NCBI GenBank assembly: GCA_029251375.1
Contig: JAQXDL010000005.1
Coordinates: 1-49,459, forward strand
Direction of reading: 5' to 3'
Source of the DNA: Pseudomonadales bacterium
GTDB taxonomy: Bacteria > Pseudomonadota > Gammaproteobacteria > Pseudomonadales > Azotimanducaceae
DNA: 49,459 nt
Part shown: positions 1-34,120 of the stretch, one piece after another
Position numbering within the stretch: position 1 is the stretch's first letter
Layout of the letters: each line of letters begins with the position of its first letter
Position numbers and translations under genes: made by a program
The notes under the pieces: model-generated
Seen by the model: only the letters and a program-made list of their open reading frames with translations
Told to the model about the DNA's origin: nothing
Databases searched by the model: none

Positions 1-90
1 AGATTGGGTTTAATATTAAATTTTGATCAGAAGCGCCATGCTGTACGCTTGTCAGCAGTCCATATATCAATAATTTACATCTAAGCGACT

Positions 91-106
91 ATTCCCACTC
101 AATAGT
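91..106 (-). repeat. guaA 3'-end att-like repeat, copy 1 (outermost)
   Basis: On the minus strand this 16-bp sequence plus the next bases reads ACT ATT GAG TGG GAA TAG, which encodes TIEWE-stop, the last residues of GuaA. It lies about 2.2 kb from the real guaA end and has no guaA gene attached. It marks the distal end of the XRE/membrane-protein cassette. Whatever lies to its left continues outside the window. Confidence 0.8.
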
Positions 107-225
107 AGACACTTCTGGAACCCTGACAAAAAAAGGGAGACAGAGGTGTACAAAGTAGTTTGTCATAAGTTTGTCACTATGAATTTAGTCTTTAATCATC
201 GTAAGTGTGTCTCTAAAAAATTTCT

Positions 226-432
226 CTATTCATAAGTAAAAACATCTTCCAAGGGTGTCTTGAAAACATTGGATATTTTAAAAGCAACTTCTAAGGATGG
301 AGAGTATTTATCTTTTTCAATGGCAAATATTGTTTGCCGAGTTACGCCTACTTTGTCTGCTAAAGATTGCTGAGACATTTCGTCTGCCTCAAATCTTAAT
401 TTTCTAATGTTATTACTTATTTTTTTCGACAA
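226..432 (-). CDS. XRE-family HTH regulator, small (68 aa)
   Basis: A small cytoplasmic DNA-binding protein consisting of a single helix-turn-helix of the Cro/C1 (HTH_3) type over residues 7-62. The recognition segment VTRQTIFAIE and the tail SPSLEVAFKI...PLEDVF are typical of stand-alone regulators usually paired with a small membrane protein. The start is a TTG at 432, preceded by the purine-rich AAGGG at the end of the upstream gene. The gap to the membrane-protein stop is one base, so the two genes should be translationally coupled. It probably regulates its own two-gene unit, perhaps through the palindrome at 898-912, but that is inference. The pair sits between two guaA-end repeats and is probably mobile. 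Confidence 0.85.
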   Translation of the reverse strand: MSKKISNNIRKLRFEADEMSQQSLADKVGVTRQTIFAIEKDKYSPSLEVAFKISNVFKTPLEDVFTYE

Positions 433-433
433 C

Positions 434-874
434 CTAAAACCCTTTGCGGTAATAATACAGTTGAGTGCCGAAACGAATTACCTCAGATAAAACAAAGAAC
501 AAGAGTAAAAAATGGAACATGCCATAAGGGCTAGTAAATATAAGGTGATTATCAAACCAAGTATCTAATAAATTCTGCATCATTAAAAACCAAATGCAAA
601 CACACAAGAACCCATAACTGTATCTATATGAAATACTCTCGATAAGTTTGTCTCTTTCATCTTCTAATGATGATTTATTTTTTAATGCTACAAATGACTG
701 AATGATGCCTTCTGAAATAATAACCAAAACAATGAGAATAATGATTGCACCTAATCTAGGTGGTTCTGGGTTTAACGACAGGTTTGAAAAAGCACCATAA
801 AAATACCATCCAAATATCAGTAAGGTAACTCCTAACGAGGCAATCAAACCTTTTTCTTTATATGACAAATCCAT
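434..874 (-). CDS. small four-helix membrane protein (DUF2178-like partner of an XRE regulator)
   Basis: A 146-residue protein with four predicted membrane helices near residues 8-28, 43-64, 86-105 and 117-138. Between helices 2 and 3 is the charged segment LEDERDKLIESISYRYSY. This ERD...I...S.RYSY pattern recalls DUF2178-type membrane proteins encoded next to small XRE regulators; the assignment is from memory of the family and moderate. Start ATG at 874 with AAGGAA eight bases upstream. The regulator gene follows immediately. The two-gene unit, with its own promoter region at 875-1081, forms one cassette between guaA-end repeats. The function of this family is unknown; a role in stress or envelope sensing would be speculation. 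Confidence 0.75.
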   Translation of the reverse strand: MDLSYKEKGLIASLGVTLLIFGWYFYGAFSNLSLNPEPPRLGAIIILIVLVIISEGIIQSFVALKNKSSLEDERDKLIESISYRYSYGFLCVCIWFLMMQNLLDTWFDNHLIFTSPYGMFHFLLLFFVLSEVIRFGTQLYYYRKGF

Positions 875-897
875 AAAATTCCTTATGTATAATTATT

Positions 898-912
898 TTT
901 ACATATTGTAAA
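898..912. promoter_or_regulatory. palindrome and AT-rich promoter region of the XRE cassette
   Basis: TTTACATATTGTAAA is a perfect inverted repeat (six-base arms, three-base centre) lying 23 bp upstream of the membrane-protein start. A related half-site, TTTTACA, follows at about 919. On the minus strand a TTTACA -35-like box and a TATACA -10-like box overlap it. It is a natural candidate operator for the XRE protein of the same cassette; this is inferred from position and symmetry. Confidence 0.45.
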
Positions 913-1081
913 AATTATTTTACACCTTATCAAGATGAAATATCAATTCAACTTATGAGATTTTACAGTAGCAAGAGTTTGCTATATCTTTCTTAGTGCT
1001 CTCAAACCGGCATTCTTTCCTTACTTTGATAAATTGTGCCACATTTAAGTTATTAATTTATATTGCTTTATATTGCTTTTC

Positions 1082-1097
1082 ACTCCCACTCAATCGT
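1082..1097 (-). repeat. guaA 3'-end att-like repeat, copy 2
   Basis: The minus strand reads ACG ATT GAG TGG GAG TGA, again TIEWE-stop, but with a synonymous GAG for GAA. This copy separates the cytochrome b561 cassette from the XRE/membrane-protein cassette. Confidence 0.85.
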
Positions 1098-1149
1098 AGA
1101 CATGAGAAAAACTCCGGTAAACATAAGGGTATGCGACGCCTGTTTTCTT

Positions 1150-1227
1150 AGTGTGTAGTAAAAAGGTTATTTTCAATTTGTACCCTTCCACCATTATCAA
1201 TAACTTACCATGTTCTAACTACACACT
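1150..1227. repeat. inverted repeat between cytochrome b561 and repeat copy 2
   Basis: AGTGTGTAGT (1150-1159) is the exact reverse complement of ACTACACACT (1218-1227). Inside it GTTATT (1166-1171) pairs with AATAAC (1199-1204). The right arm is itself part of a 17-bp palindrome (1218-1234). The structure lies just downstream of the b561 stop, at the distal end of that cassette. It could be a terminator-like fold or a recombination structure; it has no T-tract and does not match canonical attC cores. Confidence 0.5.
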
Positions 1228-1264
1228 GTGTAGTCCATGTGTAACAAAACCTTCTCTTAAAAAT

Positions 1265-1774
1265 TCATTTATCAGGCTCTTCCTTCAGTATGGGAACCAT
1301 GGCACTCCAGACACCATCTCCCTGTAAACGGTGATAAATCGCTCCAGCAATATGTAAACCCATCAGGTTTACGCTTGTCCAAAAAAATATCTCATGTGAT
1401 AAAAGGATACCTTCAAGCACTAAACCGTCCTTTACCCCGAAGTAGTACAACCCTCCAATTATCAATCCGGTTATAGCGATCAATGCGAGACTTACATACA
1501 TACCCAGATGTACAGTTCGAGCTAGCAGAATTAAGCTTTTAGGCATATCGAGCTGTGGCATAGCTGCTCGCGCAGAACGCATATATATAAATCGAAAAAG
1601 CAACAGAGAGAGAAATATAATGGCAAACAACACTTCCTTCATAAGGCGAGTAAAGTGCTCAAGCTCCTCAACTTCATCAACCTGATTTATGACAGCGTAG
1701 GCAAAAACTCCTATAAATACCCAATGCATACTTTTCGCCAGTAAGCTATACGATCTAACCCTTCGCGCGCCCAT
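1265..1774 (-). CDS. cytochrome b561-family membrane protein
   Basis: A four-helix integral membrane cytochrome b of the bacterial CybB/YodB type, expected to bind heme b and pass electrons in the inner membrane. Histidines suited to heme binding occur in helices: H17 (KSMHW), H89 (RTVHL), H127 (LLSHE), H141 and H148 (GLHIAGAIYHRL). The SYSLLAKSMHW opening is typical of the family. In-frame starts exist at 1786 (GTG), 1780 (ATG) and 1774 (ATG). I favour 1774 because GAGTGG lies eight bases upstream, which means the guaA-end repeat itself supplies the ribosome-binding site. The gene is the only one in its cassette and has the same orientation as guaA. Confidence 0.85.
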   Translation of the reverse strand: MGARRVRSYSLLAKSMHWVFIGVFAYAVINQVDEVEELEHFTRLMKEVLFAIIFLSLLLFRFIYMRSARAAMPQLDMPKSLILLARTVHLGMYVSLALIAITGLIIGGLYYFGVKDGLVLEGILLSHEIFFWTSVNLMGLHIAGAIYHRLQGDGVWSAMVPILKEEPDK

Positions 1775-1778
1775 TTTC

Positions 1779-1794
1779 ATTCCCACTCAATAGT
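1779..1794 (-). repeat. guaA 3'-end att-like repeat, copy 3
   Basis: The minus strand reads ACT ATT GAG TGG GAA TGA, TIEWE-stop. It separates the VOC cassette from the cytochrome b561 cassette and overlaps the alternative start codons of the b561 gene. Confidence 0.85.
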
Positions 1795-1889
1795 TACCCA
1801 CTTAAAATATCTATTAATATCAATACTTTAAAGGCTCTATATTTAGACTTTGTAACTTTTTTGTAACTCTTTCAGTCTCACAATCTCAA

Positions 1890-2303
1890 TCAATCCCATG
1901 GGTTATATGTCCCAAAGTTCCATAGATGCCCTTCTAAATCCTTACATGTATATCCTCTTCCCCCATAGTCTTCATCTTTAATATCAAGAACTATTTCTGC
2001 ACCTTTTTCTATAGCTTTTTTGTGATGCGCGTCAGCATCAGCCACAACCATATAAACACTTGCAGTATTCTGTCCTTCTAGTTCTATAGGAGAAGAGTTC
2101 AACTTGCCAAATCCGTCGCCTTCATGCGACGAACCCAACATAATCATACAATCGTTGTAAATTAACTGAGCATGCAGAATCCCACCATTATCGCTAGGGA
2201 CTTTAAGGTATATTTCAAAATCAAAAGCTTCACAGAGCCATTCGACGGCTTTCTCGCAATTCTTATATCTAATAGAAGGTATTATCTTTGCTTTACTTTC
2301 CAT
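1890..2303 (-). CDS. VOC (glyoxalase/bleomycin-resistance fold) family protein, PhnB-like
   Basis: A 137-residue cytoplasmic protein with two beta-alpha-beta-beta-beta modules of the vicinal-oxygen-chelate superfamily. The first module opens with IPSIRYKNCEKAVEWL and the second with TASVYMVVADADAHHKKAIE. Likely metal or substrate ligands are H44 (ILHAQL) and E124 in the C-terminal KDLEGHLW signature. It most resembles PhnB-like members, many of which have no known substrate, so the specific reaction cannot be named. The ATG lies ten bases after the guaA stop and is preceded by GAAGAAGAGA, so it can be transcribed from the guaA promoter. It forms the first cassette of the guaA array. Confidence 0.8.
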   Translation of the reverse strand: MESKAKIIPSIRYKNCEKAVEWLCEAFDFEIYLKVPSDNGGILHAQLIYNDCMIMLGSSHEGDGFGKLNSSPIELEGQNTASVYMVVADADAHHKKAIEKGAEIVLDIKDEDYGGRGYTCKDLEGHLWNFGTYNPWD

Positions 2304-2312
2304 ATCTCTTCT

Positions 2313-3941
2313 TCATTCCCACTCAATCGTTGCCGGCGGCTTGCTAGAGATATCATAGGTCACCCGTGATATGCCACTGATCTCATTGATGATGCGAGTT
2401 GATACACGCTCGAGGAATTCATAGGGTAGGTGCGCCCATCTGGCGGTCATAAAGTCGATGGTTTCAACCGCACGTAGCGCAATCACGTATTCATAACGAC
2501 GCGCGTCGCCCACAACCCCAACGGATTTAACCGGTAGGAATACCGCAAAGGCTTGACTGGTTTTATCGTATAAGTCAGCTGCGCGCAGCTCTTCAATAAA
2601 GATGTGGTCTGCCTGCCTCAATAGGTCAGCATATTGTTTGGAAACTGGACCGAGGATTCGAACACCAAGACCAGGGCCGGGAAACGGATGACGGAAAACT
2701 ATTTCATGGGTCAGGCCAAGCTCAAGGCCAATCTTTCTAACTTCGTCTTTAAACAACTCTCGCAACGGCTCAACTAATTCCAGCTTCATGTAATCCGGCA
2801 ACCCACCAACATTGTGGTGTGACTTAATCACGTGCGCCTTACCGTCTTTGTTACCGGCTGATTCAATTACGTCGGGATAGATAGTGCCCTGCGCAAGAAA
2901 ATCGGCATGTTCGATTTTGGCAGACTCTTCATCGAAGACATCAATGAAAGTGTTACCAATAATTTTGCGTTTCTCTTCAGGGTCGCTAACACCAGCTAAA
3001 CGTGTCAGGAATTTCTCTTCCGCATCTACTGTAATAATTTCAAGGTCGAAGACGTTGCTTGAGCCTTTGCCTAAAAGTTCGATGACCTGATCAGCTTCGT
3101 TCAATCGCAGCAAACCGTTGTTCACAAACACACAGGTCAGCTGATTACCAATCGCACGCGATAACAAGGCCGCGACCACTGACGAATCAACACCACCAGA
3201 AAGACCCAAAATGACACGTTTGTCGCCGACCTGCTGACGCACCTGAGTAATAATATCTTCAACAATATTGGCGGGCGTCCAGAGACATTCGCAACCGCAA
3301 ATGTCCTTTAAAAAGCGCTGCATAATCAGCTCACCCTGCAAGGTGTGATTCACCTCTGGATGAAACTGCACACCGTAAAAGCCTCGTGACTCATCACACA
3401 TGGCGGCGAATTCGGTTGTTTCGGTGCTAGCTAGTTTGGTGAAGCCATCCGGCAGCGCCACAACCTTATCGCCGTGACTCATCCAAACATCGAGATAGCG
3501 ACCTGAAGCATCCTGGCCATCTTCGATATCGGTGAGCAGTTTGCCTTCGGACTGAACGTTAACTCTAGCGTAGCCAAACTCTTGTTCGTCGGAACCTTCA
3601 ACCTTGCCACCCAACTGGATTGCCATGGTTTGCATGCCGTAGCAAATACCTAGGATGGGCACACCAATTTCAAATATATGTTGCGGTGCTCGATGCGTAT
3701 CATCATGAGTAACCGACTCCGGTCCGCCCGAGAGAATAACGCCGTTGGGCGCAAAGTCATCAACCGCCGCTTGCGTCATGTCGTAAGGGCGGATTTCACA
3801 ATAGACACCCGTCTCTCGCACACGTCTCGCGATCAGCTGCGTGTACTGGGAACCAAAGTCGAGAATCAGGATCTTTTCGGCGTGGATATTGTGCGTTGAA
3901 GAGGTTGGATCGTTGGGCGCTTTTACATCTGAATCAGTCAT
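2313..3941 (-). CDS. guaA: GMP synthase (glutamine-hydrolysing)
   Basis: Converts XMP, ATP and glutamine to GMP in purine synthesis. The N-terminal class I glutamine amidotransferase domain has C100 (GICYGMQ) and H194/E196 (FHPEVNHT). The ATP-pyrophosphatase domain carries the P-loop SGGVDSS at 248-254, and the C-terminal dimerisation domain ends in TIEWE. At 542 residues it is slightly longer than usual because about 20 polar residues precede [10 protein letters not shown]; an internal start is possible. guaB is not adjacent; the divergent neighbour is xseA. The 3' end is the apparent attachment site of the cassette array at 91-2330, which has left the GuaA C-terminus intact. Confidence 0.98.
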
Positions 3942-33800: not shown

Positions 33801-34120
33801 GTGAACAGGTATGCTTTCATGTGAAAGCTGCGTGACCCTGAACTCTCAAAAACCCTGATCTCAGCACCTTTTTCCTGCATCAGCATTAGATTACGCAGCG
33901 CTGCGGGATCGGTGAAACCAAGGTAATCGCCCGTTAAAACTCTGACCCGGGAACGCCTAGCGAGCGCGTCAAAGATTGCTTGCTCGATTAACCTAAGACC
34001 CGTTAAACGGACAAAGCCAACAGCAATACTTATGTCTGTCGCGTGATTAATAGCAGACAATAAACTGGGAATGAACGGATTTTCACCGCCGGTTGTAAGA
34101 TCACTTATTGGAAAAGGCAT
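30812..34120 (-). CDS. PLD nuclease-SF2 helicase-S24-like-DUF3427 fusion protein
   Basis: A 1102-residue multidomain protein, probably a DNA-processing or defence factor. In order: a phospholipase D-type nuclease domain (about 1-165) with H100-x-K102 and GSSN at 121-124; an SF2 helicase with Walker A ATGLGKT (229-235), DEFH (318-321), TATPERT (344-350) and motif VI QQLGRGLR (514-521); a helical linker (about 560-800); an S24/LexA-like domain (about 850-935) with S866 in GNSMNGG; and a C-terminal DUF3427-like domain (about 965-1100). In the S24 domain the usual catalytic lysine position appears to be arginine (LLRRVV, 912-917). No partner gene is adjacent. It ends 58 bp from the tRNA, facing it. 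No LexA-type operator was recognised upstream. Confidence 0.88.
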   Translation of the reverse strand: MPFPISDLTTGGENPFIPSLLSAINHATDISIAVGFVRLTGLRLIEQAIFDALARRSRVRVLTGDYLGFTDPAALRNLMLMQEKGAEIRVFESSGSRSFHMKAYLFTSDNAGLQEGCAFVGSSNITSIALETGLEWNLKVDKSENEARFSLIQQEYDQLYKDSASKPLTHQWIDRYALRRSEITETERPEAGADELELAPVPNLIQAEALAALATTRLDGYRRGLVVMATGLGKTWLAAFDAQQADAKRILFVAHREEILTQAESTFIRICPEAKVGSYNGKEHELNVDMLFASVQTLGQSRHLDRFPKDYFDYIVVDEFHHTAAATYQSLLQHFSPRFLLGLTATPERTDQSDILSFCDDNLVFNKDLFSGIDAQLLCPFHYYGIADVVDYAEISWRNGKFDPTALVNQLATQARAKHNFVHWQKHKQTRTLAFCVSRKHADFMAAYFLRQGVKAVSVHSESDKQRGEALFELAAGTIEIIFSVDLFNEGVDLPSIDTVLMLRPTESKIVFLQQLGRGLRTCEETGKKKLLVLDFIGNHISFFRKPEAMFKIGVTNNARQEFLAKIAEDTLALPQGCFVNYDLESIDFMKQLTATRVDSQQEVYSALKQSFGRRPTLSEFYRAGGNVSTVRSAVGQWLAFVEQNKDLSPQESSCLAVHQTFFEELEKTNLTKSFKLVLIEALLELDGFQNSPAITLLAEKSFDVLQRRRTLLRDLPENFRDSDHVEDDDTWVSYWRRNPVDAWVSIKKKADTFFNLAGNLFRFNQVIEPETYEDFVRFVTEIVNYRFLQYEARLALSSDAAPEALPTIAPVKNQEVPYFTDLRIACGHFGSSEHDDENLVHVPLPLSYGTLDPARHFIARAKGNSMNGGKSAIVDGDFLLLELITSDSAGSLNGSTVAIEQQDVSGDDQYLLRRVVKSRDGHYDLVANNPDYETIPHNDAMNTIARLRTIVDPTDLYLHNSFMREEIPALFGLEFNTGLWQSGHVCPKGHPDQYLFVTLNKQSHAVDHRYHDYFIDRQTFHWQSQNSTTPKGAKGKRIVNHVKNDGRVFLFVRKNKLERGKGAPFYYCGNVSYQTHEGEKPMSVKWLLDRPLSEELFDLFR

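Follow-up and report, generated by a model that had tools for sequence, protein, structure and literature searches.

Integrons are the textbook example of bacteria gathering single genes as cassettes. Here, we describe small gene units stacked behind guaA, the gene of guanosine monophosphate (GMP) synthase, in a Pseudomonadales bacterium of the family Azotimanducaceae (assembly GCA_029251375.1; genome G000, 51 contigs, 4.16 Mb). The stretch analysed (JAQXDL010000005.1, 49,459 bases; hereafter the window) spans contig C2 from end to end, and its left edge is therefore where the contig stops. Labels beginning with G denote genomes, L fetched stretches, C contigs of G000, g genera and f families. 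From sequence comparisons, it is quite likely that the units form a guaA-anchored array of cassettes that have no integrase of their own and were inserted by tyrosine recombinases specific for guaA and acting in trans.

Integron cassettes and CALINs (clusters of attC sites lacking integron integrases), as generally understood, are single genes with a 3′ recombination site, arranged serially, common to different lineages and often without an integrase nearby, and the units described here resemble them in these respects. They differ in having a core and integrase-arm-like direct repeats instead of a conserved fold and in having a housekeeping gene end, not attI, as their anchor, and they would be read from the guaA message rather than from Pc. 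A preliminary description, made from the sequence of the window alone, had called the units integron-like; this fits their behaviour (serial, repeat-bounded, gained and lost at the repeat) but does not extend to integron membership. RNAalifold found no consensus structure in 16 sites, and when positions −50 to −5 were folded site by site, only 1 of 19 lay beyond z = −3, the hairpins being weak except in L160; the attC reading was rejected on these grounds. A search for attC words returned none in window 1-2400, a result without positive control because the end of contig C33 gave none either. That contig carries an integron integrase gene (C33:562-1575, L011; TIGR02249, 413 bits), situated close to where the contig stops and not at guaA; the break may have removed its cassette array.

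Other described systems come closer in their target or in their mode of movement. According to PMC9376610, CR2-sul2 is a unit without an integrase that the integrase of GIsul2 excises and inserts between guaA cores, and we regard this pair as the closest precedent: it shares with the system described here an integrase, the guaA 3′ end as target, the core GAGTGGGA and an integrase-less, core-bounded unit. The units of the window differ from it in measuring 0.5-1 kb, holding one or two ordinary genes, lacking a CR element, being serial and having a conserved one-armed 3′ site. Cis-mobilizable elements (CIMEs) and modular islands such as PAISt (PMC4057263) are also bounded by att sites, devoid of their own recombinase and stacked at one site. 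Likewise, no recombinase was found among the four window open reading frames (ORFs) scanned. The same four ORFs showed no remnants of integrase or transfer genes. The units here differ in being gene-sized, recurrent, one-armed and found in many genera. The pdif modules of Acinetobacter are similarly small, flanked by recombinase sites and moved in trans (PMC12907356), but they use XerCD sites, whereas the guaA tail serves as core here; the genome does encode XerC and XerD. No single-gene cassette array at guaA was described in the titles and abstract openings of the open-licence literature, a body of text from which most subscription papers fall out. Judging from the sequences, the arrays appear to be non-autonomous guaA-targeted elements of a known kind that differ from GIsul2 in size, number, cargo and one-armed site. 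They would work like an integron cassette array and, though closest to integrons in behaviour, are not members, as the defining site of integrons is missing.

The four copies of the guaA tail in the window, reported in the preliminary description with spacings of 991, 697 and 536 bp, were confirmed as exact minus-strand matches to ACNATHGARTGGGART (Table 1). When up to two mismatches are allowed, the window holds five matches, the fifth, at 34057, carrying two; dinucleotide shuffles of the window gave a mean of 0.74 and none of 100 reached five, placing the cores above chance. In the direction of guaA, the order is guaA, core, vicinal oxygen chelate (VOC)/glyoxalase gene, core, b561 gene, core, a 146-aa gene with a 68-aa helix-turn-helix (HTH) gene, core. 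One transcription unit per interval had been proposed, all pointing the same way as guaA: the direction is correct throughout, and the first two intervals hold a single gene, but the third holds two. The array runs on in contig C15, in which a fifth exact tail copy lies at positions 44-59. The first 60 bases of C15 are identical to the reverse complement of window 90-149, and the contig continues with a fourth unit, an AstE/AspA-like gene (PF24827), a degenerate last core ACTTTTGAGCGAGAGC and ordinary chromosome.

The 16-bp repeat is indeed a boundary, though not the whole element: a longer 3′ site is conserved, of which it forms the core. Most of the aligned 3′ ends are composites of about 98 bp, in which GTTACAAA-like direct repeats 11 bp apart (−70/−59) are followed, often after an inverted repeat, by the core. 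The consensus of 16 aligned sites reads AAAAAGTTACAAAnnAGTTACAAACT, then a stretch frequently containing AAACCCTTGnTTTATAAGGGTTT, then the core ACTATTGAGTGGGAA. Within −74 to −55, 11 of 19 sites contain the arm word T[TG][AG][CT]AAA, against a mean of 0.54 and a maximum of 4 in shuffles, none of 5000 reaching 11. With a looser word set, an arm word was found in 12 of 23 non-guaA copies (six copies with short upstream sequence omitted) and in none of 65 real guaA ends. Forty-two matches to the site model that reached or nearly reached the core end, at about 25 bits or more, were picked by hand as a held-out set; weaker or partial matches (e.g., L100:9849, L247:3668, L273:5739, L266:5121, L248:5333) and core-only matches were omitted. 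Among the 41 distinct sites (one was a duplicate), 32 have the arm word and 17 the 11-bp pair, counts that speak for precision and not for independence since the model itself chose the sites. The preliminary description had also supposed that each tail copy once served as a functional guaA end. This assumption is unneeded if, as it appears, a core and a 3′ arm arrive with every cassette.

Gain and loss at the repeat, which the preliminary description proposed to look for in related strains, is supported. In G004, whose GuaA is 97.2% identical, the site is empty: the sequence directly behind the guaA tail is flanking chromosome, matching C15 from base 1474 on (87.6% over 1,886 bases), so the four units are missing there. 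This comparison is not base-precise, as about 220 bp beside the last core of C15 and about 60 bp behind the G004 tail are unmatched. In G001, of the same genus, the site holds different cassettes, with a kinase gene behind guaA on one contig and genes for a 111-aa protein, an amidase-like protein and a GNAT protein on another. This second array ends in the degenerate core ACTATTGAGAGGGAAC, just ahead of a gene that we take to be gcvR-like, and a gene similar to the latter directly follows guaA in G002 and G003. Uninterrupted guaA-unit-core layouts were found in G081, G169 and G572, and a three-core array in G001. The G572 genome, from another family, has guaA, exactly one 162-aa gene and the full site. 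Among nine outermost cores preceding chromosomal genes (some neighbours named by eye), those of G000, G001 and G130 are degenerate, those of G081, G154, G038, G052 and G572 follow the strict pattern and that of G039 has its first base changed. The idea that the outermost core is always degenerate was dropped, with 6/9 intact or nearly so, and because the outermost core is often intact elsewhere, core decay alone is no guide to the direction of growth.

The GuaA of the window is 68-76% identical to those of 80 retained relatives with mainly gammaproteobacterial titles. Cassette genes recur across genera, and some are more conserved than GuaA. The HTH regulator is 95.6% identical in G173, where GuaA is 72% identical, and its 146-aa partner is 77% identical in G173 and 72% in G169 (genus g35). 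Copies of b561 were found in G150 (92%), G176 (79%) and G126 (75%), and an 83% identical VOC gene in G134 (genus g30). Similarly, the G001 kinase has relatives in G110, G095 and G134 (72%, 71% and 68%), and a methyltransferase is 81% identical between G173 and G080. Among the fetched loci, no further copy of either the AstE/AspA-like or the amidase-like gene was found. Secondary sites or broken contigs are possible for the copies in G150, G176, G134 and G126, as these lie on fetched stretches without guaA. One b561 cassette (L250:4269-5031) lies between two model sites behind a gene resembling short-chain dehydrogenases/reductases (by eye), likewise without guaA on the fetched stretch, and may mark a secondary insertion site. 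At E ≤ 0.01, the site model, used on sequence only, had hits in 39 of 206 genomes and 12 of 37 genera of the family, a part of the hits being confined to the core at guaA; across the order, family included, it matched 15 of 390 genomes at E ≤ 1e-4 (10 of 142 genera, 6 families). The exact tail pattern occurs at least twice in 26 of the 206 family genomes, some of them owing to duplication or chance, as against four matches to the reversed pattern in all 206. Most relatives are drafts whose contigs often end at cores, and cassette counts per genome are lower bounds.

The absence of any recombinase near guaA in the lineage had been named as the observation that would speak against mobility. Full-length tyrosine recombinase ORFs adjoin guaA in G122, G128 and G166, and the guaA 3′ end, named in the preliminary description as a known island target, is used as one here: insertion occurs at the guaA 3′ end with the tail as direct repeat. 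In G122, the first ORF past guaA that reaches 110 aa encodes a 448-aa tyrosine recombinase (PF00589, 8.5e-9). It heads a 16.5-kb stretch with type-I-restriction-like genes (by eye), after which come the next core and a related integrase with an internal stop. The right ends of integrase islands carry the same site as the cassettes, as seen in G122 (49.7 bits, training set) and in G180 (46.9 bits, held out), where the integrase is in two pieces. An alignment of three guaA-type integrases found matches in 9 of 206 family genomes and in 4 of the 128 good ones. The integrase had no tblastn match at 1e-5 in the plasmid collection, none of 56 pattern matches in viral contigs was confirmed, and the profile had no match at 0.01 among PDB sequences. 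In addition, a very similar acyltransferase-type gene lies behind a broken integrase in two families (L137:1900-3795, PF01757, and L268:6702-8573, by eye), perhaps an element shrinking from island to cassette.

Core 91-106 has two continuations, the AstE/AspA-like unit of C15 or window 88-1. Compared in register, this second continuation agrees at 17 of 20 positions with the flank of G120, where an integrase fragment lies; no shuffle of 5000 did so (maximum 15), and the 16 cassette starts used as controls are unlike such flanks, reaching at most 12 of 20. A gapped alignment of window 1-89 to core-downstream sequences was unconvincing: the best score, 39.0, was to another part of the window, with shuffles reaching 38.5 at the 99% level and 43.0 at most. 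Window 1-89 has no second copy within the genome, nor was an integrase-type element for this core found in the assembly. The simplest reading would be that such an element occupies core 91-106 in part of the sequenced population, although a cassette arm repeated within a single linear order would likewise break the assembly.

A cassette would thus consist of one or two genes and a one-armed attachment site of about 98 bp ending in the core ACTATTGAGTGGGAA. A tyrosine recombinase of a guaA island, acting in trans, would join the core of the circular cassette to the core at the guaA 3′ end; the last five residues of GuaA would be kept and the new gene set directly behind guaA. Repeated capture would give the order guaA-core-gene-arm-core-gene-arm-core. 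What the genomes display directly are the array structure, the common 3′ site, empty and filled sites, cassettes shared across genera and guaA integrases with the same site in relatives; movement, the circular intermediate, action in trans and expression by readthrough or translational coupling are predicted from these.

Several observations weigh against this scheme. The guaA-type integrase was not found in any of the five genomes of the genus at E ≤ 1e-10, and no element-encoded or cognate integrase was found in the array or in the assembly, where PF00589 matched only XerD, XerC and the integron integrase on C33. The two arm words recur across the core as a P′ arm (+41 and +52) in only 5 of 16 integrase-type flanks, and in three of the seven with an identified integrase or fragment. 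By the looser word set, 11 of 23 non-guaA copies have no arm word at −74 to −56 (window 1082, L137:3979, L138:5728, L163:6352, L142, L155, L175, L153, L125, L082 and L041); L163:6352 has its arm pair at −92/−81 instead, some of the armless copies are probably chance matches or other elements, and L125 and L153 are probably chance matches. Gene direction is also variable: one G001 cassette gene and the ORFs between the closest neighbouring sites in G400 oppose the site. Finally, ORF starts (≥60 aa) within 40 nt are not clearly commoner at non-guaA cores (20/49) than at real guaA ends (19/64), and starts inside the core (GGGAATGA) number only 6/49.

The intervals could instead be CIME-like remnants, each an autonomous guaA island stripped of its integrase and most of its cargo and not a dedicated cassette; we consider this unlikely. 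Island decay does occur, since integrase fragments or split integrases were found behind guaA in G085, G120, G180 and G492, with fragments elsewhere in G130, G179 and G547, and the 3′ sites of islands and cassettes are identical in kind. However, the cassette starts lack a P′ arm, and it seems to be the compact form itself that spreads, given that one and the same compact gene turns up in several genera; the one-gene layout of G572 also argues against stripped islands. Very improbable is movement of the units by the C33 integron integrase, with guaA as a secondary site for an integron-type array: a true intI is present, but the sites have no consensus structure by RNAalifold, the attC word search in window 1-2400, for what it is worth without a positive control, was empty, and in relatives the tyrosine recombinases next to guaA, which share this site, are not of the integron type.

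We give still less credence to homologous recombination or duplication between guaA 3′ ends, in which no site-specific recombination would take part. Longer guaA 3′ duplications exist (L141, L156), but in the array identity to guaA stops at the core, which is preceded by a different arm site common to unrelated cassettes. An assembly artefact at the repeat, as suggested by the contig end within the array and the two continuations of one core, is just as hard to credit, given that three units are continuous inside the contig and that continuous layouts also occur in other genomes (G081, G169, G572 and the three-core array of G001).

With trans-acting capture by guaA integrases as the preferred reading, captured genes starting in or just after the core might be read with the guaA message. 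The preliminary description had one repeat supply the ribosome-binding site of the b561 gene; this is possible, but the 1779 copy can provide the start codon itself (GGGAATGA, ATG at 1780). The b561 cassette is thus of the start-in-core type, and 27 nt separate the start of the VOC gene from that of the core. A start inside the core was also found in 6 of the 64 real guaA ends and in 0.8% of shuffled downstream sequences. The idea that cassettes in general start in the core was dropped after the count at non-guaA cores. Translational coupling to guaA is possible for some cassettes and not for all, as starts lie in or near the core in some, while a leader exceeding 200 nt precedes the 146-aa/HTH pair, which probably has its own promoter.

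Whether this amounts to a second natural cassette-capture system beside integrons we consider evenly balanced. The guaA end would be the dock and the one-armed site an attP-like tag, helper island integrases would act in trans, and genes would be switched on by sharing start and stop with the guaA message, in several families of one order (gammaproteobacterial by GuaA similarity) drawing on a common pool of small adaptive genes. If so, cassette capture would have evolved more than once, the parallel system differing in its site and its recombinase and having expression built in. It would also account for lone foreign genes behind guaA, provide a search model for cassettes outside the scope of integron finders, and predict helper integrases acting in trans, which can be tested. 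The features of the window are listed in Table 1.

Table 1. Features of the guaA-anchored array in the window.
Feature	Position	Strand	Basis and remarks
guaA (GMP synthase, 542 aa; host gene)	2313..3941	-	ORF call; last codons TIEWE* are the insertion core
Core copy 1, genuine guaA 3′ end (target site)	2315..2330	-	ORF and pattern; sole copy ending a real guaA
Cassette gene 1, VOC/glyoxalase-fold protein, 137 aa	1890..2303	-	PF00903, 1.2e-10
3′ site of cassette 1, core copy 2 at 1779-1794	1777..1874	-	Alignment and arm pair; direct repeats TTACAAA at 1849-1866, inverted repeat; 60.9 bits, in training set
Cassette gene 2, cytochrome b561-like	1265..1780	-	PF01292, 1.6e-13; likely start ATG within core copy 2, overlapping the TGA of the tail
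3′ site of cassette 2, core copy 3 at 1082-1097	1080..1177	-	47.0 bits, in training set; no arm word at −70/−59 by word search
Cassette 3, first gene, 146-aa protein	434..874	-	Membrane-like by eye; no Pfam family
Cassette 3, second gene, 68-aa Cro/C1-type HTH regulator	226..432	-	PF01381, 2.1e-14
3′ site of cassette 3, core copy 4 at 91-106	89..186	-	Alignment and arm pair; repeats TGACAAA at −70/−59 (about 159-176); 64.6 bits, in training set
Stretch past core copy 4 to contig end	1..88	-	Resembles P′ arm of integrase-type flank

A few further loci were observed. In a metagenome-assembled genome titled Porticoccaceae NAT127, a 9.3-kb segment lies between two guaA tails (L082:11591-20881), in which tblastn with three guaA integrases found nothing. 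In the G400 genome (family f41), some 40 kb separate two clusters that together comprise five sites (L264:7057-9218 and L265:5753-16918), with no guaA on the fetched stretches. In the G001 array, two adjacent transposase-like ORFs (IS3-like by eye) lie between a cassette gene and a 3′ site (L100:7081-8250), and a similar pair was found near another site (L253:2109-3265). Finally, the second guaA tail of G087 (L141:4886-6164) follows about 60 bp nearly identical to guaA, and that of G144 (L156:5633-6108) follows guaA-like coding sequence; both are unlike the cassettes and represent a distinct phenomenon, either duplication or an assembly effect.

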